Shown: one piece after another, positions 16,466 through 28,174 of the stretch | How the letters are laid out: each line of letters begins with the position of its first letter | Position numbering within the stretch: the first letter of the stretch is position 1 | Assembly: GCF_014203015.1 (NCBI RefSeq) | Contig: NZ_JACHIB010000015.1 | Coordinates: 1-64,000 of the forward strand | Source: Castellaniella defragrans | GTDB taxonomy: Bacteria; Pseudomonadota; Gammaproteobacteria; Burkholderiales; Burkholderiaceae_B | Direction of reading: 5' to 3' | DNA: 64,000 nucleotides | Notes under the pieces: generated by a model | What the model was told of the DNA's origin: nothing | What the model saw: the letters and a program-made list of their open reading frames with translations, nothing else | Database searches by the model: none | Made by a program: the position numbers and the translations under genes

Positions 16466-16548
16466 TCCCTTACGGGTGCGCCGGAAAACCCTTATCGTCA
16501 CCGGATACAGAATGTCTTGAACGACCTGGTCCTGGTCACGGGGGTGCG

Positions 16549-16776
16549 ATGGCTGAGACGCAACTGCTGCATGGCCGCGGCCCTGTTCCGGCCGCCGTGC
16601 GGGCGCATCCGGGCGCGCGGGCGCGGCGCGAGACCGATCCGGCCGCTCCCGCCGACGGCCCGGCGTTCCGCCAGGCCCTGGCCCATTGGCCGCTGCTGGC
16701 GGAAATGGACCGCTACCTGGCCCGGAGCCGGCGCGCGCCGTCCGCGCGGGACGACGATCCGGACGCGGCGCGATGA
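16549..16776 (+). CDS. bcsR: Cellulose biosynthesis protein BcsR-like
   Basis: A 75-residue protein whose C-terminal half (AFRQALAHWPLLAEMDRYLA) matches the core of E. coli BcsR (YhjR), a small regulator that binds BcsQ at the cellulose synthase. The first 35 residues are Pro/Ala/Arg-rich without clear fold. GGGGGTG stands ahead of the ATG. Its stop overlaps the bcsQ start by four bases (ATGA). No cellulose synthase gene is present in the window, so the partner machine is unknown. Confidence 0.7.
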   Translation: MAETQLLHGRGPVPAAVRAHPGARARRETDPAAPADGPAFRQALAHWPLLAEMDRYLARSRRAPSARDDDPDAAR

Positions 16777-17480
16777 ACATCCTCACCTTGACGGGGGTGC
16801 GCGGCGGCGAGGGCACCACGACGGTCGCGGGGATGCTGGGGGATGCCCTGCACGCGCTGGGCCAGCGCGTGCTGCTGGTGGACCTGAATGCCTCGGATCT
16901 GCTGCGCCTGCATTTCGGCGTGCCGCACCGGGACGGGCATGGCTGGGCCGCCGCCGGCTTCCCGTTCGACTGGCGCCAGCAGGCATTCGAGCCGGCGCCC
17001 GGCCTGGCGCTGGTGCCGTTCGGCCGCGCGGCCGTCGAGGACGCGGGGATGCCGCCCCTGCTGCATGGCGACGATTTCTGGCTGCGCGCCCTCGCCGGCC
17101 TGGCCGGGGATTTCGACTGGGTGCTGTTCGACTGTCCCGCCTATCCGGGCCGGCAGGCGCGCGCGCTGCGCTTCCGCAGCACGCTGGACGTGCTGGTCGC
17201 CCAGCCGGACGCCGCCGCCCACGTGCTGCTGGCGCAGATCGGCCTGGGCGCGGCCAGCCACCTGCTGATCAACGATTTCGAGCCGTCCTGGCCGCTGGCG
17301 TGCGACGTCGTGCTGGACTGGCGCCACCACTACGGGCCGCGCGTGCTGCCGCAGGCCATCCGCCGCGATGCGTGCCTGTCCGAGGCCCTGGCGTGCAAGC
17401 AGCCGGTCACGCGCTATCGGCCCGATGCCGCCGCCAGCCGGGCCGCGCGAGTCCTCGCGCAGTGGTGCCTGTTGTCCTAG
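16773..17480 (+). CDS. bcsQ: Cellulose biosynthesis protein BcsQ (MinD/ParA-like ATPase)
   Basis: A 235-residue SIMIBI-class ATPase. The N-terminus ILTLTGVRGGEGTTTVAGML corresponds to the deviant Walker A of BcsQ (RGGVGTT in the E. coli protein as I know it; here Glu replaces Val). VLLVDLNASDLLRLHFGV and DWVLFDCPAYPGRQAR form switch I and Walker B. BcsQ localises and supports the cellulose secretion complex at the cell pole with BcsR. It is coupled to bcsR by ATGA. Its TAG stop overlaps the stop of the convergent LuxR gene. With curli and PNAG genes next door, it may serve another polysaccharide system; that is inference. Confidence 0.82.
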   Translation: MNILTLTGVRGGEGTTTVAGMLGDALHALGQRVLLVDLNASDLLRLHFGVPHRDGHGWAAAGFPFDWRQQAFEPAPGLALVPFGRAAVEDAGMPPLLHGDDFWLRALAGLAGDFDWVLFDCPAYPGRQARALRFRSTLDVLVAQPDAAAHVLLAQIGLGAASHLLINDFEPSWPLACDVVLDWRHHYGPRVLPQAIRRDACLSEALACKQPVTRYRPDAAASRAARVLAQWCLLS

Positions 17481-18310
17481 GCGGCGGTATCGCGCCGCAT
17501 CGTGGCGGGGTCGTGCCAGCCCAGCGTGGCGCCGCGCGACACGGCCGCGTAGACCGCGGCGTTGCGGCTGTTGACGGCCAGGCGCTGGTAGAGCGCCTCG
17601 GCGTGGGTCTTGGCGGTGGCCACCGAGATGTTCAGTTCCCGGCTGATCTTCTTGAGCGGATAGCCCTGGGCCAGCAGCACCAGCACTTCGTACTGGCGGT
17701 GCGTCAGGTGCAGCATGGGGGCTTCGCGGGCGACGAGTTCGGGCGTGAGGGTCTGGATCCCGGCCCGCGGCGCGGGCGGCGCGTGGCCGCCGCCCGGAAG
17801 ATGCAGCAGATTGTCGGGCTGGGGCTCGTCGCTGCGGGGCAGGGAAGGCAGCTCCAGGCGGTCGTACCAGCGCCGCCTCGGCTGCTCGCGGCCGTCGGGC
17901 TGCAGGATGTCGGCCTGGCGCGCGTCGGGGTGCGGAAAGCATTTGCCGCCGGCCAGGACCAGCATGACGGAGGTCTTCAGCACGTCCTGCGAGGCGTGCT
18001 TGGAAATGTACCCCGCCAGCACGGGAGGCAGGTTGAGCAGCGAGTAGGGCAGGGTCCAGGTTTCCGACAGCAGCAGGAGGCGGCGCGGCGTATAGTGTTC
18101 CTGCGCCGCGGTGACGAGCTCGATCATCCGGTCGTAGACGCCCGGCACCGACAGCAGCATCAGGTCCGTCTCCCTGCGCCGCGGAGTGTCGTGGAACAGC
18201 TGCGCGTAGTCGATGCCCGTGCTGGTGAAGGCGCAGTCCAGCGTACGCAGCAGCGTCAGGAGTCCCATGCGCAGGAGCGCGTTGGGCTCCACTACCGTGA
18301 TGGTCACCAT
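17477..18310 (-). CDS. LuxR-family regulator with degenerate receiver domain (CsgD-like)
   Basis: A 277-residue two-domain regulator. Residues 1-115 have the fold pattern of a response-regulator receiver, but the phosphorylation site is missing. The acidic pair is EP (VVEPN) and the acceptor Asp is Ser-54 (TDLMLLSVPG). A LuxR/FixJ helix-turn-helix lies at the C-terminus (LTHRQYEVLVLLAQGYPLKK and ATAKTHAEALYQRLAV). This is the architecture of CsgD, the curli master regulator. AAAGGAG precedes ATG 18310. It follows pgaD on the same strand after 137 bp and is the last gene of the curli/PNAG run. Control of that run is a reasonable inference; homology to CsgD itself beyond architecture is not shown. 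Confidence 0.85.
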   Translation of the reverse strand: MVTITVVEPNALLRMGLLTLLRTLDCAFTSTGIDYAQLFHDTPRRRETDLMLLSVPGVYDRMIELVTAAQEHYTPRRLLLLSETWTLPYSLLNLPPVLAGYISKHASQDVLKTSVMLVLAGGKCFPHPDARQADILQPDGREQPRRRWYDRLELPSLPRSDEPQPDNLLHLPGGGHAPPAPRAGIQTLTPELVAREAPMLHLTHRQYEVLVLLAQGYPLKKISRELNISVATAKTHAEALYQRLAVNSRNAAVYAAVSRGATLGWHDPATMRRDTAA

Positions 18311-18363
18311 CGTGATGCTCCTTTGAGAAGGACTTTGGTTACACGCAGTGAAACGGGTGTTCA

Positions 18364-18392
18364 ATTCTTGATGGGTAAGGCGGATTTGACAA
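18364..18392 (-). promoter_or_regulatory. Candidate sigma-70 promoter of the LuxR-family regulator
   Basis: On the minus strand TTGTCA (18392-18387) is separated by 17 bases from AAGAAT (18369-18364), in an AT-rich stretch between pgaD and the regulator. This would let the regulator be transcribed apart from pgaABCD. The -10 is poor. Confidence 0.35.
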
Positions 18393-18446
18393 TCCTTAAT
18401 TTTCCATGTGTGACTAATCTTTCCACTCGTAACCAATCTGTAGGGA

Positions 18447-18920
18447 TCATTGTTGCATTTGTAGTGCCATGTGCCCGGGCTCGGCGTCCTCGGCCGGGCG
18501 CTGCGCGAAGTCGATCATGCTGATCCGGCCTTCGTCGGTATGGTGGATGAGGAGGCTCCGGCTGGTGCGCAGGATCCGCAGCTGCGCCAGGCTGACGCCG
18601 AAGTGCCGCGCCAGCGTCTCCGGCCCCGGGGCGCCCGGCGGCCTGCGCCGGTGCAGGCCGCTGAAGCGCACGGCGTTGTAGCAGGCCCAGGCGGACAGCA
18701 GCAGTCCGATGCAGGCCGCCACCAGCGCGTAGGCCAGCAGCGCCTGCGCGTCCGGCAGCAGGCGGGACACGGCGGGGCTGGCGGCCGCATGCGCCGTGCC
18801 CGCCATGATCGAGTGGACGCCCGAGGCGAACAGGAAGCCGAACGTGGCCCATGCCAGCGTCGTGAGCAGGCCGTCGAGCGCGGCGGCGAGGGCGGAGCGG
18901 GGGGTCTGGATGATCATCAT
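18447..18920 (-). CDS. pgaD: Poly-beta-1,6-N-acetylglucosamine synthesis protein PgaD
   Basis: A 157-residue protein with two transmembrane segments (about 10-36 and 55-78), followed by a cytoplasmic part. PgaD (BpsD in Bordetella) is the small subunit of the PgaC synthase and helps mediate cyclic-di-GMP activation. Identification rests on topology, N-terminal IIQTPRS and position directly after pgaC with a four-base ATGA overlap. Its tail is longer than in E. coli PgaD. Confidence 0.8.
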
Positions 18921-20251
18921 GATGTCGGCGCCTTGATGCCGCGGTCGGGGCTCTTCCAGCGGGCCCGGTCGCGGCGGCGCCGGAGCATGACGCGGGGAAA
19001 GCCCCACAGCGTGGTGAGCAGGCTGATCATCCAGTAGGCCAGGGGATACCAGATGACCCAGTAGAGCGAACGGAACAGGCCGCGTTCGTAGCGGTGGTCG
19101 ATGAAGACGCTGACGCAGAACTGCAACAGGCAGGCCGCGGCCAGCGCCATGCCGGTGAAGGCGGGCGGCACCAGCGTCTCGACGTGGATGCGCGCGGGCA
19201 GGGCCACGAACAGGCCCGCCGCCCACAGCGCCAGGGACAGGGCCAGGGCGAAGGCCCAGATCGTCGATACGCAGTATTCCAGCGCCATGGGCCAGAGGCG
19301 GCGGTGGCGCCAGGCCCGGATGCCGGGGAGATTCTTCAGGAAGACCTCGGCGCCCCCCCGCGCCCAGCGCAGCCGCTGCTTCCACAGGCCGCGCAGCGTT
19401 TCCGGCATCAGGATCCAGCACAGCGCGCGCGGCTCGTAGAAGATCGACCAGTGGTCGCGCTGCAGCTTCCAGCTGATGTCGATGTCCTCGGTCACCATGT
19501 CCAGGCTCCAGTAGCCGACCCGGTCCAGCGCGCCGCGGCGGAAGGCGGCCACCACGCCGGACACGGTGAAGATCTGGCCGTAGACGCGCTGGGTGCGCTT
19601 GATCAGGCCCACGATGGACGAGAATTCGCCCACCTGGACCCGGCCGATCAGCGTGGACCGGGTGCGGATGCGCGGGTTGCCGGTGACCGCGCCGACCCGC
19701 GGGTGGTCGATCAGGGGGGCCACCAGGTAGGCCGCGGCGTCGCGGTCCAGGATGGCGTCGCCGTCGATGCAGACCAGGTATTCGCCGCGGGCCGCCAGCG
19801 CGCCCATGCGCAGGGCCATGGCCTTGCCCTGGTTGCGGGCGAGATGGATCACCCGCAGGCGCGTGTGCGCCTCGGACAGCCGGTCCAGCAAGGCGCCCGT
19901 GGCGTCCGTGGAGCCGTCGTCGATGGCGATCACCTCCACCCGCGGATAGCGCTGGCCCAGCGCCGACAGGATCGTGTCGGCGCCGTGCTCGGCCTCGTCG
20001 TGGCAGGGGATCAGGATGGAAACCCAGGGCTGTCCGCGCAGTGCCGGCGGGGCGGCGTCCGGGCCCCAGGGCCAGTAGCGCTCCCAGTGCAGCCAGTAGT
20101 ACAGCCCGCCGAACATCCACAGGCTCGACATGAACAGCGGATAGAAGAAGACGAAGTCCAGGATCAGGTTGCCCGTCCACAGCAGCGCCACCCCGAAGGG
20201 CGCGCCCGCGACCAGGCACAGGATCAGGAAGGCGAACAATCGGTCCGTCAT
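18917..20251 (-). CDS. pgaC: Poly-beta-1,6-N-acetylglucosamine synthase PgaC
   Basis: A 444-residue family 2 glycosyltransferase. Two N-terminal membrane helices precede the catalytic domain. This contains the UDP-sugar and metal-binding acids (DDGST at 111-115, DGD at 163-165), the base TED at 254-256 and the processive motif QRLRW at 292-296. Further C-terminal helices follow. It polymerises UDP-GlcNAc and secretes the chain across the inner membrane with PgaD. GAGGAG lies upstream of ATG 20251; an in-frame GTG three bases earlier is a weaker option. Twelve bases separate it from pgaB. Confidence 0.93.
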
Positions 20252-20263
20252 CACGGATTCTCC

Positions 20264-22285
20264 TCAGCGGTGGGGATACCAGGCGGTCGAGAGTGCGGGC
20301 CGGATGGTCTCCAGCGCCGGCCGGTCGTGCGCGAAATCGTCGGGGTAGTAGCCGAAATGCCGCACGCCGGCGCGCTGCAGGCGCTGCATCCAGCCGGCCA
20401 GGATCCGGCTGTCCACGGGCGGGCGGCCCGGCAGGCTCCAGTCGCGGGCCTGGAGCTCGAACAGCGTGCGCTCCAGCGCGCCCGGGCGCTGCCGCATCGC
20501 CGCGACCAGGCGGTCGATCCAGGCGCCGGAACGCGCCAGGGGGACCCGCTCCATCAGCGGCATGGCCATGGGCACGGTCCAGTCGTAGGCCTGCAGGAAG
20601 TCGTCCGGGTTCTGCGCGTACCAGGCTTCGCTGGCCGGGTTCAGGACCGGCTCGGCGTACAGGTTGCGGGCGGTCTCCACCTGCGGCCCGCGGATGGCGC
20701 GCACGCGCCGCGCCAGCGCGAGCGTGAAATCGGTCAGCGCGCGGCTCTTGTAGCGCGTCCAGCGCCGCAGGGTGTCCGGGTCGGCGCGCAGCGCCGGGAT
20801 CGAATCGGGCAGGCCCGCCCGCCGGTAGGCGGCGAGCGCCGCCGGGCCGGCGTCCTCGAAGTCGCCCAGCAGGGCGTCGTCGTGGAACAGGACGCCGTCG
20901 ATCGGCGCGGCGCGCGCCATGTCCTCGTACAGGTCCGCGATGGCCGCCCGGGCGCGCGGGTCGAAGGGCGACAGCCTGCGGTATTGCGCGGGATCCGGCG
21001 CCGGAGGCGCGTCCGGATGCGCGGGGTCCAGGCGCAGGACGCGGCCGATGCCGGGCAGGTCGAAGCTCAGCACCGGCATCCAGGCGTAGACCTTCACGCG
21101 GGCGCGGTTGCGCAGCTGCCAGACGGCGCGGTTGAACAGGTCGGCGCGCATGGGCAGCCGGCGGTTGGGGAAATAGACCGCGCGCGCCAGGCCGTCGCCC
21201 GTGGGATCGGCATAGGCCTGCAGGAAGACCGTGTCGATCTTCAGGTCGGCGATCCGCTGCACCAGGGCGCCCAGGTTCCTGTCCGTCTGGGCCGGGTCGG
21301 GATCGTAGACGTAGTCCAGATCCACCTGCGCCACGCGGAAGTCGCCGCGGGACTCGGCGCCCAGCACGGAGCGCGCGAACGCCGGCATGTCGGGCGAGTC
21401 CGTCACCAGCATGCGGGGCATGGACAGCGGCGCATCCACGCTGCCCAGGCCGCCGTCGAGGGTCAGGGCCATGCGGTATCCCTGGCTGCGGACGATGTCC
21501 AGCGCCTCGCCGCTCGCGGCGCCGTAGGGCCAGACCCAGACGCGGGGCGCCTTGCCGGTGGCCTGGCGGATCTTGCGCGTGATGCGCCGGACGTCGTCCG
21601 CGATGCGCCGCCGGTAGGCCGCGGGGGTCTCGTAGGCGCGCGCGCCGGCGTCGTAGCGGTACGTGGCGGCGGCCGGCTCCGCGTTGCCCTGGGGATTGGC
21701 GGGGATGCCCTGGTGCAGGTCGTCGGTGTGCGAGGCGATCTCGACCAGGCCGGAGCGGGCCATCTGCCGCACGTCCTCCCAGGTGGCGAAGCGGTCGCGC
21801 GGCACCCGCAGATCGCCGAAGCGCACGGGCTGGTCCGGCGGGGTGTCGATCCAGCGCCCCACGGGCGCCCAGACGGCGGGCCAGCCCATGGCCTTCAGGA
21901 TGGGGTAGACGCGGCTGCGGAAGCTGCGGTAGCCGTCGTCGAAGCTGAGCAGCACGGCCTTGGGCGGCAGGGGCGCGCCGCCCTGGCCGGCGGCCAGGAT
22001 CTGGTCGACGGACACGGCCTGGTAGCCGTTGTTCCGCAGCCATTCGAGCTGGGCGACGAGCTGGTCCGTGCGCACCGCCAGGAACCGCTGGTCGGGATCG
22101 CTGTCCTCCACGTCGTGGTAGGCCAGCGCCAGCACGCGATTGGCGGGCCAGGGCCGGTCGATGGCGACCACGGGCCTCTGGGCCGGCGGCACGAACGCCG
22201 GGATGTCGCGCGCGCAGCCGGCGAGCAGCGCGAGGCAGCACGCCAGCAGGAACAGGCGCGGACCGCAGGTGAAGGATCGTGGCAT
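20264..22285 (-). CDS. pgaB: Poly-beta-1,6-N-acetylglucosamine N-deacetylase PgaB
   Basis: A 673-residue lipoprotein (lipobox LLAGC, Cys-24). The N-terminal family 4 carbohydrate-esterase domain has the metal and catalytic Asp pair in LLSFDDGYRSF (116-117) and the His pair in EIASHTDDLHQ. A C-terminal glycoside-hydrolase-like domain (from about 310) begins DRNLGALVQRI and includes DGVLFHDDALLGDFE, as in PgaB/BpsB. It partially deacetylates PNAG in the periplasm, which is needed for export through PgaA. Start 22285 follows GGGAGCG; the gene is 14 bp from pgaA. Confidence 0.93.
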   Translation of the reverse strand: MPRSFTCGPRLFLLACCLALLAGCARDIPAFVPPAQRPVVAIDRPWPANRVLALAYHDVEDSDPDQRFLAVRTDQLVAQLEWLRNNGYQAVSVDQILAAGQGGAPLPPKAVLLSFDDGYRSFRSRVYPILKAMGWPAVWAPVGRWIDTPPDQPVRFGDLRVPRDRFATWEDVRQMARSGLVEIASHTDDLHQGIPANPQGNAEPAAATYRYDAGARAYETPAAYRRRIADDVRRITRKIRQATGKAPRVWVWPYGAASGEALDIVRSQGYRMALTLDGGLGSVDAPLSMPRMLVTDSPDMPAFARSVLGAESRGDFRVAQVDLDYVYDPDPAQTDRNLGALVQRIADLKIDTVFLQAYADPTGDGLARAVYFPNRRLPMRADLFNRAVWQLRNRARVKVYAWMPVLSFDLPGIGRVLRLDPAHPDAPPAPDPAQYRRLSPFDPRARAAIADLYEDMARAAPIDGVLFHDDALLGDFEDAGPAALAAYRRAGLPDSIPALRADPDTLRRWTRYKSRALTDFTLALARRVRAIRGPQVETARNLYAEPVLNPASEAWYAQNPDDFLQAYDWTVPMAMPLMERVPLARSGAWIDRLVAAMRQRPGALERTLFELQARDWSLPGRPPVDSRILAGWMQRLQRAGVRHFGYYPDDFAHDRPALETIRPALSTAWYPHR

Positions 22286-22299
22286 GGCGCGCTCCCGAG

Positions 22300-24543
22300 T
22301 CAGAACCGGATCGTCGCGTCGACGAGGAAGTTGAAGCTGCGCTCGCGCTGGCCGTCGTAGGGCCGCGAAGCGACCGAGGCGAGAAAGCCGATCTCGAACG
22401 CGGGACCGTGGCGGTAGCGCAGGCCGTAGCCGAGGGTGTAGAGGCCGCCCGTGCCATAGCCCTGCTGCGCGTAGGCGCCGGCCGCCAGCTGCACCCGTTG
22501 CTCCCACCGGACATCGCCCCGCTGGTACAGGGTGTGCGCCAGCTGCAGCGCCGGCAGGATCGTCAGGTCCGAGCGGGGATTGAAGTAGGGGGCGTCGTCG
22601 GCCGTGTTGTGCGAGGCGGACAGGTCCAGCAGCGCGTCGATCCGCACGCTGGGCGCGGTGTACAGGCGCTGGCGCCCGGACAGGCCGGCCTCCAGGCGGC
22701 GGTTGCCGTCGGAGAAGAAGGCGGGCGCCACGGTCAGGGTCCATTCCCGGCGCTCGTCGCCGCGCCAGCGCAGGGAGGCGCTCAGGCCGTTGGCCCTGAT
22801 GTCGTGCTTCAAGGCCCGCAGCGGCGTGTCGCGCGACAGCAGGGAGGCGCCCACGCCCGCCTGCCAGTGGTCGTCCAGGTCCACGAAGGCCGAGAACGCG
22901 GCCCCGGCCCGGGTGCCGTGGCCGTAGCGGTTGCCCGAGGCTTCCACCTGGGCCGTCAGGTCCCGGCCGCGCCATTCGAGGCCGGCGCGCGCCCAGGCGT
23001 AATGGCCGGTGCCTTCCTCGAACCGGGCCTCGGCGTAGCCGGTGCCGGCGAACGCGCGCCAGTTCTCGTCCAGCGGCGGCGAGTACAGCACGGTGTCGAT
23101 GCTCGCCTCGCGGCTGCCCAGCACCGCGCCGCCGCTGGCGCCGCCCCGGCTGGCGCTGGTCCGCCATTCGGCCTGCCGGTGCGCGGTCCATGCCCGGTCC
23201 AGCCGCTGCACCGCGGCGGATTCCGGGAAGCGGGCCGTCAGGTCGTCGCGCAGCAGCCCGGCCTGGCGCCATTCCTGTAGGGCGAGGGCGGTCTCGGCCT
23301 GGCCGAGCTCGACCTCGATGGATCGGGGCGCCTGGGTTTCGGCGATCTTCAGTTCGCTTTCCGCCCGGCGCGGCAGATCCCGCGCGCGCCAGACTTCCGC
23401 CCGCGCCACGCGCAGGCCGGTGTTGCCGGGCGCTTCCCCGGCCATGCGGTCCAGGCGGGCCTGGGCGTCCAGCGTATCGCCCTGGTACAGCGCGCCCAGG
23501 GCGCGCACCAGTTCGGCGTCCAGCTTCGCGGGATTGGGACGGCGCATCGGATCGCCCTTGATCCAGACCCAGGTGGGCAGCGCGGCCAGCGCCCGGTCCA
23601 GCTCGGCGTTGGCCGCGCCGGTCCGGTCCGACTCGGACAGCGCGTAGAACAGGCCGATCTGGCCGGCCGCCCGGGCCGTCGCGTCCTGGCCCGCGGTGGA
23701 GGCCAGGGAGCGCTCGAACAGGGGCGCGGCCTCTTCCGGCCGGCGCAGGGCCAGGTACGCGCTCGCCGCGTCGTCGAGCGCGTAATCCGGGACGGGCGTG
23801 CCCTCCGCCCGCATGGCTTCGTAGCCCGCCGCGAGGTCCCGCATGCGGCCGCGTGCGCGCAGGGCCTGCAGGCGGTCCGTCTCGGCGCGCCGCACGTCGC
23901 CGCGGGCCTGCGGGCCCAGGGCGCGCCATTGCGGAATCAGCCGGTCGTATTCGGCCAGGGCGCGGTCCGCCAGGACGTACCGCTCGGCCTCGCCCCGGGC
24001 GTCGGCCGACGCGGTCCGGGTCAGCTGGGCCGCGGCGTCGGCCTGCAGCGCGCGGACCAGGGCGGGGTCGGCCAGGCCGGGATGCGCCTGCGCGATGCGC
24101 AGGGCCGCGCGGGGCAGCCGCGCCTGCCGCAGGGCCAGGACGTAGGCGTGCGCCACCCCGGGCGCGTCCGGCGCCCGCTCGTAGGCCGCGGTGGCGAGTT
24201 CCAGCGCCGCATGGGGCTGGCCCGCCCAGCCGGCGATCGTGACGTAGTCCTCCAGCGCGCGGCGGTCTTCCGGAGTCTGCTGCAGACGCCGCTTCAGCAT
24301 GTCCAGCGCCGGCTGGTGGTCGCCCGCGCGGGCCTGCCGGATCAATGCGTCGTAATCCTGCGCCTCCTGCGTCTTTTGCGTCCCTTGTGTCCCTCGTGTC
24401 CCTTGCGTCCCTTGCGTCGCCTGGGTCGCCTGCGTCGGGGCGCACGCGGCCGTGCCGGGCAGTGCCAGGATGGCGCACGTTGCAAGCGCGATGAGCGCGA
24501 TGAGCGCGGCGGCCGGCGGCCGGGCGGGTCGGGCGGGCTTCAT
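22300..24543 (-). CDS. pgaA: PNAG outer-membrane porin PgaA with TPR domain
   Basis: A 747-residue secreted protein. A signal peptide (ending TAACA) is followed by a low-complexity T-Q-G/A repeat, then TPR-like helical repeats to about residue 480. The C-terminal beta-barrel ends FNFLVDATIRF with terminal Phe. PgaA (BpsA) exports PNAG across the outer membrane, and its TPRs bind deacetylated polymer and PgaB. It begins the pgaABCD run and lies 12 bp after csgC, so the curli and PNAG genes may share transcripts. Confidence 0.9.
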   Translation of the reverse strand: MKPARPARPPAAALIALIALATCAILALPGTAACAPTQATQATQGTQGTRGTQGTQKTQEAQDYDALIRQARAGDHQPALDMLKRRLQQTPEDRRALEDYVTIAGWAGQPHAALELATAAYERAPDAPGVAHAYVLALRQARLPRAALRIAQAHPGLADPALVRALQADAAAQLTRTASADARGEAERYVLADRALAEYDRLIPQWRALGPQARGDVRRAETDRLQALRARGRMRDLAAGYEAMRAEGTPVPDYALDDAASAYLALRRPEEAAPLFERSLASTAGQDATARAAGQIGLFYALSESDRTGAANAELDRALAALPTWVWIKGDPMRRPNPAKLDAELVRALGALYQGDTLDAQARLDRMAGEAPGNTGLRVARAEVWRARDLPRRAESELKIAETQAPRSIEVELGQAETALALQEWRQAGLLRDDLTARFPESAAVQRLDRAWTAHRQAEWRTSASRGGASGGAVLGSREASIDTVLYSPPLDENWRAFAGTGYAEARFEEGTGHYAWARAGLEWRGRDLTAQVEASGNRYGHGTRAGAAFSAFVDLDDHWQAGVGASLLSRDTPLRALKHDIRANGLSASLRWRGDERREWTLTVAPAFFSDGNRRLEAGLSGRQRLYTAPSVRIDALLDLSASHNTADDAPYFNPRSDLTILPALQLAHTLYQRGDVRWEQRVQLAAGAYAQQGYGTGGLYTLGYGLRYRHGPAFEIGFLASVASRPYDGQRERSFNFLVDATIRF
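24364..24435 (-). repeat. Eight-copy 9-bp coding tandem repeat at the mature N-terminus of PgaA
   Basis: Eight 9-bp units (coding-strand consensus ACGCAAGGG) encode Thr-Gln-Gly/Ala triplets directly after the predicted signal-peptide cleavage site of PgaA. Units vary at one to three bases. Copy-number change would keep the frame and alter only the linker between signal peptide and TPR domain. Confidence 0.85.
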
Positions 24544-24555
24544 GGCGGACGCGGC

Positions 24556-24873
24556 TCAGGGGGTGCGGGGGCACGCGAAGGTGTACGTGCCCGCCGGATG
24601 TCCGTTGGCGTACAGGACCAGCTCGATCCGGCATTGGTCCCGTTCGCCCACGGAAAGGGAAAATCGCGTCAGGGCGGTCGGCGTGTCCGCGCGCAGCGGC
24701 ACGCTGCCGCTTTGCTGGAGGGAGGACGTTCCGCTGCGCCCCTGCCGGACGGCGCTCAACTGGTAGCGCAGGGTGCCGTCCTCGGGGCTGCGCACGTAGG
24801 GGATGATGATGCCGGGCCGCGTGCCGGGCACGGTGTCCAGCCAGACCTGCAGGCCTGCATCCATTGCCATCAT
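24556..24873 (-). CDS. CsgC/CsgH-type curli chaperone
   Basis: A 105-residue protein. The stretch RYQLSAVRQGRSGTSSLQQS, then VPLRADTPTALTRFSLSV, lines up well with the immunoglobulin-like CsgC of E. coli, which keeps curlin from aggregating in the periplasm. The CxC motif of E. coli CsgC is absent; two Cys are near the end (DQCRIEL, TFACPRTP), closer to CsgH proteins. AGGAGAC precedes ATG 24873. No signal peptide is visible at this start and there is no earlier in-frame start, which is odd for a periplasmic chaperone. It is last of the csg genes, just before pgaA. Confidence 0.75.
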   Translation of the reverse strand: MMAMDAGLQVWLDTVPGTRPGIIIPYVRSPEDGTLRYQLSAVRQGRSGTSSLQQSGSVPLRADTPTALTRFSLSVGERDQCRIELVLYANGHPAGTYTFACPRTP

Positions 24874-24965
24874 GGTCGTCTCCTGATGCTGCGGCGCCGG
24901 GGGAGGGAGGCGCCCGGGCCGGCCGGGGGCGGCCGTCCCGGGCGCGGGGCCGCCGGCCCGGCGGC

Positions 24966-25577
24966 TTACCAGCCGGTCTGGGTGATGGTGCTGACGTTCA
25001 TGTTGCCCTTCTGTACCGCCGAGGCGTACAGCGAGGCGCCGGTCTGGCTGACGTTGGCCGTGTTGTTGAAGCCGGCCTGGTAGATCCTGGCTTCCTGACC
25101 CCAGCCGTTCTTCTGCGTGATGTTGCCGACGTTCTGGTCGCCTTCCTGGATGATGCTCGCCTCGGCGAAGGAGTCGTACTTCTGCGAGGTGCTGGCGGTG
25201 TTGTTGAAGCCGGACTGGCGGATCGAGGATTCCTGGCCGGAGCCGTCCGACTGGATCGCGTTGGCCACGTTCTGGCTGCCCTTCTGCACCACCTCGGCGC
25301 GGGCGTGCGTGTGCGTCTGCTGCACGTCGGCCGTGTTGTTGACGCCCGCCTGCCAGATCTTGGCCTGGCCGATCACGCCGGTCTGGCTGATCTTGCCGAC
25401 GTTGCGGTCGCCTTCCTGGTCGATGTAGGCCGACGCGTTGGTGTTGTACGACTGGGTGATCGCCGCGTCGTTGTTGAAGCCGCGCTGGTCGGTGCTGCCC
25501 GTGCTGCCCGCGAATGCCGCCGAACCGGCGAAAGCCAGGGCGAGACCGGATGCCAGGACGCGAAGTTGCGTTTTCAT
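24966..25577 (-). CDS. csgA: Major curlin subunit CsgA-like
   Basis: A 203-residue secreted protein (signal peptide ending AAFA). The mature protein consists of about eight curlin repeats with the pattern xIxQxGxxNxAxxxQ. Two repeat types alternate: G-F/V-NNTA (QAGVNNTADVQQ, QSGFNNTASTSQ, QAGFNNTANVSQ) and G-D/S-x-NV (QEGDRNVGKISQ, QKGSQNVANAIQ, QEGDQNVGNITQ). Gln and Asn ladders suit an amyloid beta-solenoid. It forms the curli fibre, nucleated by CsgB. AGGAGCATCATC precedes ATG 25577. E. coli CsgA has five repeats, so this fibre subunit is longer. Confidence 0.93.
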   Translation of the reverse strand: MKTQLRVLASGLALAFAGSAAFAGSTGSTDQRGFNNDAAITQSYNTNASAYIDQEGDRNVGKISQTGVIGQAKIWQAGVNNTADVQQTHTHARAEVVQKGSQNVANAIQSDGSGQESSIRQSGFNNTASTSQKYDSFAEASIIQEGDQNVGNITQKNGWGQEARIYQAGFNNTANVSQTGASLYASAVQKGNMNVSTITQTGW

Positions 25578-25720
25578 GATGATGCTCCTCAGGAGTCGAT
25601 AAGACCGGTTTGGGAAATACGCCGCCCGGCGGTCTTGGACCGGGCTTCGTCGGAAAACGGAAAACCGGAAAACAGGAAGCGGAAAGCGGGAAGGCCGGGC
25701 GGATGGGCGCCGGGGCGGGC

Positions 25721-26269
25721 CTACCGGACCACGGTGATCTTCAGGCGGTCGCCGAACTGCAGGACGGGGGCGGAAGACCCCGGCTTCTTCTGCAGCACCC
25801 GGGCCTCGTTCATGCTGCCGAACTGGTCCACCGTGGCCCTGGCGTTGCTGGTGTACTGCTCGATCACGGCCAGGTTTCCGCTCCCCACCTGCTGGGCGAT
25901 GGCCGTGTCGCTGTTGCCCACCTGGGTGATCTCCACCTGGTTGCCGGAGCCGGCCTGGCTGGCGGACGCCCGGTTGCCGGCGCCGGCCTGCGTGATCGCG
26001 GCGCCGTTGCCGTCGCCCCGCTGCGTGACGGCAGCCGACGAGCGCGCGCCCTGCTGGCGGATCCGGCTGGCGTTCATCGCGCCCTGCTGGACCGAGTCTG
26101 CCCGCAGCGACGCCGATCCGAGTTCGGCCGGCGGCAGTTCGGACGGGCGGGCCGGCTCGGCGCCGGCGCCGTATCCGGCCAGGGGGGCCGCGGCCAGCAG
26201 GGCGGCGGCGCACAGGGCCAGTCCCCGCCGGGCGGGCCGGCGCGGGGAGGTCGGAAGGAATTCGTGCAT
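25721..26269 (-). CDS. csgB: Minor curlin subunit / nucleator CsgB-like
   Basis: A 182-residue secreted protein. After a signal peptide ending near AGYGAGA come curlin-like repeats (VQQGAMNASRIRQQG, TQRGDGNGAAITQAG, SQAGSGNQVEITQVG, QQVGSGNLAVIEQYT, VDQFGSMNEARVLQK). The Arg/Lys-rich terminal segment LQFGDRLKITVVR resembles the anchoring end of CsgB. It seeds CsgA polymerisation at the cell surface. AGGAGACC is upstream. The csgB-csgA order is as in other curli loci. Confidence 0.88.
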   Translation of the reverse strand: MHEFLPTSPRRPARRGLALCAAALLAAAPLAGYGAGAEPARPSELPPAELGSASLRADSVQQGAMNASRIRQQGARSSAAVTQRGDGNGAAITQAGAGNRASASQAGSGNQVEITQVGNSDTAIAQQVGSGNLAVIEQYTSNARATVDQFGSMNEARVLQKKPGSSAPVLQFGDRLKITVVR

Positions 26270-26306
26270 GATGGAGGTCTCCTGATTCGCGGGATGGCGG
26301 ATGCCG

Positions 26307-27266
26307 CTACAGCGTGGCCGCCTGGCCGTCGCCCTGTGCCGGGGCGGCGCCCGCCGGCCCCGCGGCCTGCCGCGGCGTCACGGTGAGGGTGTAGTCCTTC
26401 TCGGCATCCAGATAGCGCTGGATCAGGGGATCGTTCCAGTCGCCTGGATTCTTCAGGCGCCACTGGTTGTCCTTGATGCCCTGCACGGTCAGGTGCATGA
26501 CCGCGGCGTCGATGGCTTCCTTGACGGCCAGCTGCGCCGGCTCGTTGTGGGTGTAGCCCCCCTCGACTTCCAGCAGGTCGTAGTAGTTGACGAAGCGGAA
26601 GTAGCTGGGGTGGATTTCGTACGAATAGATGGTCTTGGTCGTCGAGACGCTGTTCAGGATGGCGCCGCTCAGGACGTCCACCGCCCGCAGGTTGACGGTG
26701 ACCTGGTCCACGCTGTACTGGGTGGACAGGCCGATCCCGAGGAACTGCGCGCCCAGCCCGCCGGTGCGGGTGTTGCTGTCGTAGGCGATGACGCCGCCTT
26801 CCAGGATGATGGTGGCCGGCAGCAGGTTGGGCACCTGGCCCTGCTGCCCGCCGCCTTGCTGCCCGCCGCCCTGCGGATGCTCGCCCACCGCGCGCAGCAC
26901 GCGGCGCTCGGTCAGCAGGGACTGCAGGCCCTCGCGCTCCACCGGCACGTACCAGCCCGAATCCTTCAGGGCCTTCATCAGCATCGAGGCCGCGCCCTGC
27001 GTCACCGCGGTGGAAAAAGAACTGTCCGGGGACGGCTTGTACTGGCCGGTCTCGTCGCGGAAGCCATAGACGGCCGCCACGATCTTGCGCTGGGGCGGCG
27101 GCAGCCGCATGAGGTCGACCGTCGAGGGCGTGGCCGGCGTCAGCCGCGCCTCGTTCGAGACGTTCGCCGGCTTCTGCAGCGCGCAGGCCGACAGCGTGAG
27201 CGCGGCCAGCGCGGCCAGGCAGAGGCGGGCGCGCCGGGCGCGCGCGGGGATCGGCAGCGTGCTCAT
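26307..27266 (-). CDS. csgG: Curli secretion channel lipoprotein CsgG
   Basis: A 319-residue lipoprotein (LTLSAC lipobox) with CsgG motifs: PPPQRKIVAAVYGFRDETGQ, SFSTAVTQGAASMLMKALKD, PVEREGLQSLLTERRVLRA, STQYSVDQVTVNLRAVDVLS and SVSTTKTIYSYEIHPSYFRF. It forms the nonameric outer-membrane pore for curlin export. Where E. coli CsgG has a short loop after the ...RxIIRAxxE segment, this protein has a Gly/Gln-rich insert (QGGGQQGGGQQGQ), encoded by short repeats. The start overlaps the csgF stop (ATGA). Confidence 0.95.
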   Translation of the reverse strand: MSTLPIPARARRARLCLAALAALTLSACALQKPANVSNEARLTPATPSTVDLMRLPPPQRKIVAAVYGFRDETGQYKPSPDSSFSTAVTQGAASMLMKALKDSGWYVPVEREGLQSLLTERRVLRAVGEHPQGGGQQGGGQQGQVPNLLPATIILEGGVIAYDSNTRTGGLGAQFLGIGLSTQYSVDQVTVNLRAVDVLSGAILNSVSTTKTIYSYEIHPSYFRFVNYYDLLEVEGGYTHNEPAQLAVKEAIDAAVMHLTVQGIKDNQWRLKNPGDWNDPLIQRYLDAEKDYTLTVTPRQAAGPAGAAPAQGDGQAATL

Positions 27267-27730
27267 TGCAGGACTCCGCTGTCGATGCTCGCCGGGCTTT
27301 GGGCCGGCGCGAGCAGGCTGGCGGCGCTGGACGCCGCGGCCGAGCCGCCGGCCGGCAGGCTGTCCAGATCGAAGGGGATCCACTGGCCCTTGGTCGAGTC
27401 GTAGATGTAGACGCCGTTGCCGACCTGGATGATGGGGGCGGTGCCGGCGTTCAGGATCTTGATCTCGCCGTTGCCGTCCAGGCCCAGGTCGTCCAGGGGG
27501 TACGGGTAGCGCTTCTGCGCCTGGGCGCTCTGCAGCAGGTAGGAGCCGTTCAGCGGATTGCCGCCGAAGGACGGGTTCACCGGCACGTAGACCAGCTGGC
27601 CCGCCGGGGCGGTGCCCGACAGCAGCAGCCCGGCGGCGGCCAGCGCGGCCTGCAGGCGGCCCCGGGCCCTGTGCGGATTGCCTGTGCTGCCTGTGTGCGT
27701 ACCTGCTTTGTGCGCTTCGTGCGTGCTCAT
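27263..27730 (-). CDS. csgF: Curli assembly protein CsgF
   Basis: A 155-residue protein with the diagnostic CsgF N-terminus LVYVPVNPSFGGNPLNGSYLL right after the signal peptide, which inserts in the CsgG pore. The signal peptide has an unusually long polar N-region (about 25 residues rich in His, Thr and Gly). CsgF couples secretion to nucleation by CsgB. The ATG directly abuts the csgE TAA stop, and GGAGATG lies inside the end of csgE. Confidence 0.93.
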   Translation of the reverse strand: MSTHEAHKAGTHTGSTGNPHRARGRLQAALAAAGLLLSGTAPAGQLVYVPVNPSFGGNPLNGSYLLQSAQAQKRYPYPLDDLGLDGNGEIKILNAGTAPIIQVGNGVYIYDSTKGQWIPFDLDSLPAGGSAAASSAASLLAPAQSPASIDSGVLQ

Positions 27731-28174
27731 TTACATCTCCTCCGGGCCCAGGTCGGCGTCCTGGACGAACCTGCGCTGAATGTGGATGGATTCGATGCCG
27801 TCGTGGACGATGCCGACGGCCTCCTTGCTTTCCTGGCGCGCCCGCGAGCGGGCGGGCGACAGGAAGGTGTGGAACAGGGTCTGGTTGTCGTAGCTGATCC
27901 AGATCTCGCTGCCGAACTGGGCGGTCGGCCGTTCGATGACGGTGATCGTGTCCTGCGAATCGGGATACAGCGCCTGCCAGATTTCCGAGAAACTCTTGTA
28001 GAATTCCCAGCCCAGCACGGTGACGGTCCGGCCGATCACCAGGCCGCGCAGGGGATCGCTGTCGATCCGGCCCTGGTCCAGGTCGCGCGGCTCCTGGCCG
28101 GGCTCCTGCGCGGCGGCCGCCGCGCCCAGCAGCGCCGCGATGATGATGCCGAGCCGCAAACCCATGGACCGCAT
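27731..28174 (-). CDS. csgE: Curli secretion specificity factor CsgE
   Basis: A 147-residue secreted protein. DPLRGLVIGRTVTVLGWEFY follows the signal peptide, with ITVIERPTAQFGSEIWISY and TLFHTFLSPARSRARQ, the CsgE pattern. It caps CsgG in the periplasm and selects curlin subunits. AGGAGAAG precedes ATG 28174. First gene of the minus-strand curli/PNAG run and divergent from the ATP synthase operon. Confidence 0.93.
   Translation of the reverse strand: MRSMGLRLGIIIAALLGAAAAAQEPGQEPRDLDQGRIDSDPLRGLVIGRTVTVLGWEFYKSFSEIWQALYPDSQDTITVIERPTAQFGSEIWISYDNQTLFHTFLSPARSRARQESKEAVGIVHDGIESIHIQRRFVQDADLGPEEM

Follow-up and report, generated by a model that had tools for sequence, protein, structure and literature searches.

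A window of 64,000 nucleotides from Castellaniella defragrans (NCBI RefSeq assembly GCF_014203015.1, contig NZ_JACHIB010000015.1, positions 1 to 64,000 of the forward strand) contains, between positions 16549 and 28174, an island in which genes for curli amyloid fibres, for the polysaccharide poly-N-acetylglucosamine (PNAG) and for a LuxR-type regulator follow one another on the minus strand, with a plus-strand bcsR-bcsQ pair (BcsRQ) beside them. Research on BcsRQ has treated the pair as essential for the activation of cellulose synthase. The reading favored on balance is that of a biofilm-matrix island beside which a BcsRQ pair that left a cellulose operon has been kept without its docking part and helps the island. 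The features are the following:

27731 to 28174, minus strand: csgE (PF10627, 120 bits, E=5e-35, above the Pfam cut-off)
27263 to 27730, minus strand: csgF (PF10614, 54 bits, E=2e-14, above the Pfam cut-off)
26307 to 27266, minus strand: csgG (PF03783, 232 bits, E=7.5e-69), its start overlapping the csgF stop by 4 bp
25721 to 26269, minus strand: csgB-like curlin gene (PF07012 repeats, six stretches)
24966 to 25577, minus strand: csgA-like curlin gene (PF07012 repeats, six stretches)
24874 to 24965, minus strand: hairpin in the csgA-csgC gap, a putative attenuator or 3' stabilizer (fold z -1.57 in the window)
24556 to 24873, minus strand: csgC/csgH-like chaperone gene (PF10610, Tafi-CsgC, 42.8 bits against a cut-off of 25; NF041112, CsgH)
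22300 to 24543, minus strand: pgaA (PgaA barrel, 362 bits, E=2e-108; TIGR03939 above cut-off)
20264 to 22285, minus strand: pgaB (GHL13, 481 bits, and deacetylase, 83 bits; TIGR03938 and NF011177 above cut-off)
18917 to 20254, minus strand: pgaC (glycosyltransferase, 108 bits; TIGR03937 above cut-off)
18447 to 18917, minus strand: pgaD (PF13994, 115 bits; TIGR03940 above cut-off)
17477 to 18310, minus strand: LuxR-type regulator with a receiver-like N-terminus and a helix-turn-helix (HTH) domain (GerE HTH, 48 bits, above cut-off)
16773 to 17480, plus strand: curli/PNAG-linked bcsQ (PF06564, 315 bits, E=3.5e-94; TIGR03371 above cut-off)
16549 to 16776, plus strand: bcsR-like gene whose product lacks the N-terminal BcsA plug (ALAHWPLLAE motif; five-ortholog profile)

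Every island protein of the window except BcsR scores above its Pfam curated cut-off, and the NCBIfam cut-offs are passed by PgaA, PgaB, PgaC, PgaD and BcsQ; the NCBIfam Csg equivalog models match CsgE, CsgF, CsgG, CsgB and CsgA, all below their cut-offs. The csgC-like gene passes the NCBIfam CsgH subfamily model (53 versus 35) and falls below the CsgC equivalog cut-off (44.5 versus 75); PF10610 predicts a CsgC-type chaperone, for which CsgC and CsgH may both be suitable labels. As predicted from these profiles, the curli (type VIII secretion) set is present with CsgG, CsgE, CsgF and curlin-repeat subunits, and the PNAG set is complete with PgaA, a PgaB that has both its deacetylase and its hydrolase part, PgaC and PgaD. 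The gene identities, place and strand proposed in a first-pass annotation of the same DNA are thereby borne out by Pfam and NCBIfam profiles, bcsR being the weakly supported member, and its convergence of bcsR-bcsQ on the regulator is confirmed, the pair at 16549-17480 (plus) facing the minus-strand luxR gene. Intergenic distances are 143 bp for csgB-csgA, 92 bp for csgA-csgC, 12 bp for csgC-pgaA (exactly as first annotated), 14 bp for pgaA-pgaB, 9 bp for pgaB-pgaC and 136 bp for pgaD-luxR, the last measured to the likeliest regulator start at 18310.

The curli portion resembles that of E. coli in its CsgA, CsgB, CsgE, CsgF and CsgG, a CsgC/H-like gene, a nearby LuxR-type regulator and a csgA-csgC hairpin, but it is unidirectional (csgEFGBAC), with the regulator at the far end and pga joined in. 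All four pga genes keep the canonical order of the E. coli pgaABCD operon; here they begin 12 bp behind csgC, whereas the E. coli K-12 chromosome has 8.6 kb between pgaA and csgG. The earlier contrast with textbook curli and PNAG loci as separate thus holds for the operons, but the loci are not distant from each other. Dueholm 2012 (PMC3521004) states that Betaproteobacteria have no csgC or csgD homologs. Among the matches listed in the open-licence PubMed Central (PMC) literature, none was found to describe either a csg-pga union in this family or BcsRQ in the absence of BcsA.

In the family, 151 genomes were surveyed, including the window genome (G000, 3.94 Mb, 45 contigs), with linkage defined as CsgG and PgaB within 15 kb. 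After removal of G102, G090 and G147, whose CsgG matches are weak (51 genomes reduced to 48), a strong CsgG is found in 48 genomes, PgaB in 46 and both in 34, and the two systems are linked in 30 of these 34. Curli and PNAG genes therefore make up a module conserved across this family, with a tighter arrangement in one clade. The neighborhood search for csg beside pga called for in the first-pass annotation accordingly upholds the union and the tight join within the window's clade, but not its being peculiar to this genome; a join unique to the window genome is ruled out by the survey. CsgG places Castellaniella, Candidimonas, Eoetvoesiella and other Alcaligenaceae near the window genome. Four genomes carry both systems without being counted as linked (G011, G027, G050 and G082), the curli contig of G027 being merely 5.2 kb long and G082 having pgaA immediately before csgE. 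In a sample of 300 genomes of the order, CsgG occurs in 7 and PgaB in 21 (5 and 18, respectively, outside the family), and no genome outside the family was found with both systems at a depth of at most three candidates scored per genome, at which PgaB may have been missed.

Gene order among the 30 linked genomes is pga-then-csg in 24, csg-then-pga, as in the window, in 5, and on opposite strands in 1. The commonest layout of the family is pgaABCD, a gap, csgEFG-curlin-csgC and luxR, and pga is found between csgC and luxR only in the window's clade. In quick trees without bootstrap, the csg-then-pga rows (eight, including the added G110, G441 and G442) form one clade for PgaC (support 100 in the Shimodaira-Hasegawa-like approximate likelihood ratio test), and for CsgG, where one row shorter than 150 residues is omitted, they form a clade with the opposite-strand G016 (support 100). 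The csgC-pgaA distance is at most 54 bp, or the genes overlap, in seven measured genomes of the window's clade (G443 omitted; relatives' starts estimated by homology), and pgaD and csgE are 142-673 bp apart in the 23 genomes of the other order that were measured (G138 omitted); this comparison indicates that the rearrangement in the window's clade removed a promoter-sized gap.

Several loci depart from these layouts. In G110 (L050:9634-12033) and Castellaniella caeni (L025), the locus has neither pgaA nor pgaB, and pgaC and pgaD come 175 bp after csgC, while the curli genes and bcsRQ are retained; no PgaB was found elsewhere at E<=1e-60. The curli-linked PgaB of G019 (L067) and G104 (L071) is matched over approximately residues 11-405 only, within an open frame of ~600-630 residues, so that the hydrolase part at its C-terminus may have diverged or be lacking; both genomes carry further PgaB copies or parts elsewhere. 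In G138 (L082), csgG, csgE and pgaB each appear divided between two reading frames, as broken genes or assembly errors. G016 has two curli loci (L045 and L096), one of the kind seen in the window's clade, facing opposite-strand pga, and one of another kind with luxR before csgE.

The csgA-csgC gap contains a hairpin well beyond the window. In all 32 genomes measured, its minimum free energy is lower than the average of the shuffled sequences (mean z -2.9), with z below -2 in 22 of them; these genomes are related rather than independent, and of the 35 loci tried G000, G062 and G063 were left out (the start could not be located or the gap exceeded the allowed length), their hairpins being viewed by eye and the window folded separately. 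Control gaps, folded over their first 100 nucleotides while the csgA-csgC gap was folded whole, reach z below -2 in 1/18 cases for csgC-luxR, 1/18 for csgG-csgA, 2/17 for csgG-csgB, 5/19 for pgaD-csgE and 0/5 for pgaD-luxR. The stem sequences diverge widely among genomes. The E. coli gap has a hairpin followed by a T-run (z -5.2), and by eye such a run follows the hairpin in few relatives (G062, G441 and G145). A consensus scan for one promoter type detected no promoter-like site at the csgC-pgaA join; in all it returned 2 sites against 1.2 expected, not above chance, one of them in the pgaD-luxR gap.

These observations bear on the best-surviving alternative, according to which curli and PNAG genes are mere neighbors, csgEFGBA and csgC-pgaABCD forming separate transcripts under separate control. 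The ubiquity of the hairpin in the measured genomes, its E. coli counterpart at the same place and the wide pgaD-csgE gap of the commoner order lend it some weight, but the linkage across the family, the short csgC-pgaA join of the window's clade and the lack of a promoter-like site there, in a scan for one promoter type, make it rather unlikely. Since that join is so short and few hairpins are followed by a T-run, read-through is likely. The hairpin would then act as an attenuator or 3' stabilizer that keeps curlin mRNA high, and csgC, together with pgaABCD in the window's clade, would be expressed by read-through past it. Given this hairpin and the 136-bp gap before the regulator, the sequence argues for stepped rather than uniform expression of the island. 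From the suggestion that fibre and polysaccharide are made as one regulated unit, the conserved module, the shared luxR neighbor and the tight join survive, but the uniformity does not.

The regulator is predicted to consist of a receiver-like domain and a LuxR HTH (mean predicted local distance difference test score 71). Its model matches the regulatory domain of CsgD (5xp0, Z 12.9) and VpsT (3klo, Z 13.2), but because very many other receivers match as well (Z 8 is reached by 603 of 1000 aligned chains), the resemblance to CsgD is non-specific. Against the NCBIfam CsgD equivalog, it scores 32.6 bits (cut-off 250) through the HTH part alone. The usual phospho-acceptor aspartate site, assigned by reading the motif, reads LLS, with S54 invariant in nine aligned orthologs. 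The same regulator gene adjoins the island in most of the relatives' loci mapped. Orthology to CsgD is not established, the fold matches covering receiver domains in general; of the earlier label "CsgD-like", the LuxR type is retained and CsgD identity is reduced to resemblance.

On the other side of the regulator, the window BcsQ matches E. coli BcsQ over its full length (closest solved structures, E=1.5e-35) and is predicted to be a BcsQ-type SIMIBI ATPase. The window BcsR, of 75 residues, has no match to Pfam CBP_BcsR (two of five orthologs do, best E=0.00045), reaches 16.6 bits against the NCBIfam BcsR model (E=0.0047, below the cut-off of 46) and retrieves nothing in a single-sequence search of the PDB; with a five-ortholog profile, the sole PDB matches are BcsR chains, at residues 37-58 (E=0.013-0.016). 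According to a cited study (PMC11470070), E. coli BcsR inserts its N-terminus (D21, I22, L25, F29, L31, I34 and Y36) into cellulose synthase as a plug and uses its C-terminal helices to hold the BcsQ dimer. The same study describes that mutation of the plug leaves formation of the BcsRQ complex intact while cellulose secretion is lost, and that BcsP of betaproteobacterial hybrid cellulose operons has a BcsR-like N-terminus. When sequences are anchored on the shared helix, the plug pattern D[IVL]xxL...Y occurs in 15/15 cellulose-linked BcsR/BcsP proteins (14 from the family and one from E. coli) and in 0/8 curli/PNAG-linked BcsR. The ALxxWPLLAE-type helix is retained in all eight of the latter (ALAHWPLLAE in the window), and the profile match to E. 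coli BcsR starts at residue 37, right after the plug. The window protein thus appears to have the C-terminal BcsQ-binding helices expected of BcsR and to lack the N-terminal BcsA plug.

The pair consequently resembles E. coli type II BcsRQ in its full-length BcsQ match and its BcsR helix, but is linked to curli and PNAG with no adjacent bcsA, BcsR plug or BcsE found. It likewise differs from BcsP-BcsQ hybrid operons, whose longer BcsP has retained the plug, a feature also of the BcsP-like protein in the cellulose operon of the window genome. By its predicted gene content, the island would not be classed as a type II Bcs (cellulose) system, for which BcsA and BcsB accompany BcsRQ and BcsE.

Within a sample of ten genomes of the genus, a BcsQ relative is present in nine, and bcsR-bcsQ converge on luxR in seven (G000, G029, G062, G110, G441, G442 and G443), with eight copies; G088 has a cellulose-operon BcsQ only, and G145 has no BcsQ. 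Among the 300 genomes of the order, a BcsQ relative at E<=1e-30 was found only in the window genome, with at most nine candidates scored per genome. The other BcsQ proteins of the family with E<=5e-61 lie directly before a bcsA-like gene in 13/13 cases (with a weak BcsA match in L092); weaker matches were mapped only for the one in G000. In G442, echA is gone from the flank, and a 43-residue scrap of atpI (L123:9476-9604) stands beside csgE, the site of the atp operon in other members of the genus, from which it follows that this genome was rearranged with bcsRQ staying by the island. A displaced BcsQ of the curli/PNAG clade lies downstream of a GGDEF-type gene (by our own reading of the DNA) in G129 (L054:5000-6790), where no BcsR was found; the last gene on the G129 contig is cut off near its start, which resembles a signal peptide. 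A block resembling GATACAGAATG / GATACAGAATGT precedes bcsR in 8/8 sequences, the displaced G129 BcsQ among them (window 16500-16520), the GATACAGAATG pattern being derived from the same sequences with 0-2 mismatches. The block resembling GATACAGAATGT upstream of bcsR is a possible candidate promoter. When the csgE and bcsR upstream regions were aligned separately, no counterpart of GATACAGAATG was seen by eye before csgE.

Curli/PNAG-linked BcsQ is under purifying selection. Its ratio of nonsynonymous to synonymous substitutions (dN/dS) is ~0.07-0.28 over 28 pairs of eight sequences (G129 included and G062, absent from the alignment, excluded), with dS up to ~1.8, and its reading frame is open in all nine copies. 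These BcsQ proteins, G129 among them and with G062 now included, group together on one side of the tree of BcsQ sequences (85/99). Distance correlations as a measure of co-evolution were not used, several values being undefined and the others ranging from 0.25 to 0.71.

Cellulose machinery is scarce in these genomes. Of 12 genomes tested, just two, G000 and G088, have a BcsA above the family cut-off, the remaining matches falling on the PgaC of the locus; six of the seven bcsRQ-luxR genomes have none above it. The absence is firm in G029, which is a single contig with 99% completeness; the assemblies of G441, G443 and G129 are less complete. BcsB was found in 3 of 11 genomes (G000, G088 and G027; G441, G442 and G443 were not part of this test) and not in G029, G062 and G110, which carry bcsRQ-luxR, nor in G129. 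BcsE was found in 0/8 genomes with this BcsQ, versus 3/3 comparison genomes with a cellulose-operon BcsQ. Since most of these bacteria seem to be without cellulose synthase, BcsRQ has probably become detached from cellulose synthesis and been retained for the curli-PNAG island, where it would have a new job. The window genome has a separate cellulose operon on contig C6 (L043), with a BcsP-like protein, a second BcsQ, BcsA, a glycoside hydrolase of family 8 (GH8), BcsC and two tandem BcsB matches, and there is no bcsA beside the window bcsRQ. A view of bcsR-bcsQ as a cellulose locus within the island fails on this separate operon with its own BcsQ, on the lack of BcsA above the cut-off in six of seven genomes and on the absent plug.

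That BcsRQ is a slowly decaying remnant of a cellulose operon since lost, taking no part in curli or PNAG formation, is unlikely. The loss of the plug, the variable BcsR N-terminus, BcsA below cut-off in 6/7 genomes, BcsE found in none and the lack of a detectable BcsR in G129 would all suit such a relic, but BcsQ is open in every copy and constrained at the dN/dS values given above, and the BcsR helix has been retained throughout. That BcsRQ still serves a cellulose synthase in trans where one exists is improbable: although another contig of the window genome encodes BcsA, BcsB, GH8 and BcsC, that operon owns a BcsQ and a plug-bearing BcsP-like protein, the window BcsR has no plug, and six bcsRQ-luxR relatives, including the single-contig G029, are without BcsA above cut-off.

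A number of observations weigh against a BcsRQ pair retained for a co-expressed matrix island. The BcsR N-terminus varies among copies, so that decay is possible, and the G062 BcsQ carries a changed residue in the P-loop region. The window genome itself encodes BcsA and BcsB, and its BcsRQ could therefore still serve cellulose. G063 (Candidimonas) and G088 share the csg-pga-luxR order without bcsRQ there, and G129 (92% complete) has this BcsQ, yet csgG and pgaB were not found in it; a strict tie between BcsQ and the island is poorly matched by a BcsQ that stands without BcsR, csgG or pgaB found. Beyond bcsR, echA is an ordinary flank shared with bcsRQ in 6/7 genomes, and bcsRQ beside the island reflects one arrangement inherited within a single genus rather than repeated independent events. 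The rearrangement in G442 is one event and may be local, since ttcA remains ~10 kb from csgE, and the atpI scrap weakens the idea that the island and bcsRQ moved elsewhere. As for the hairpin, that of the window only modestly beats shuffled sequences (z -1.57; 15/200 as good), and a consensus terminator scan called neither this hairpin nor any other site on the minus strand of the island.

Nevertheless, a matrix island aided by a BcsRQ pair of cellulose origin remains the favored reading. The island would combine a full curli secretion and assembly set with a full PNAG synthesis and export set and a LuxR-type regulator, kept together family-wide, with a reshuffle in the Castellaniella clade placing pgaABCD directly behind csgC. 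Transcription from upstream of csgE would yield the curli genes; the hairpin after csgA would hold most transcripts at csgBA, with csgC and pgaABCD supplied at a lower level by read-through. The regulator, presumably expressed from its own 136-bp upstream gap, would act instead of CsgD. In the simplest account, BcsR-BcsQ would derive from a cellulose-type (type II Bcs) operon through a single event, in which the pair left that operon, lost its docking part and was retained beside the matrix island, keeping the BcsQ ATPase and the BcsQ-binding BcsR helix. It would most likely position or activate an inner-membrane part of the island, with PgaCD as the best candidate. More tentatively, as a possibility of less than even weight, BcsRQ may have been captured as the cytosolic scaffold of a shared secretion site for curli and PNAG, its MinD-like ATPase placing or activating the PNAG synthase PgaCD (or the site of curli export), with fibre and polysaccharide emerging together.

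The novel part of this system is a plug-less BcsRQ without cellulose synthase. Its retention by a different polymer system, with no cellulose synthase found and the docking part of BcsR lost, would represent a natural separation of function, and BcsRQ function without BcsA becomes testable in a cellulose-free strain. The case could also reveal the passage of synthase regulators between exopolysaccharide systems. For the family as a whole, the widespread union of curli and PNAG genes suggests that the amyloid fibre and its polysaccharide are made as one matrix.

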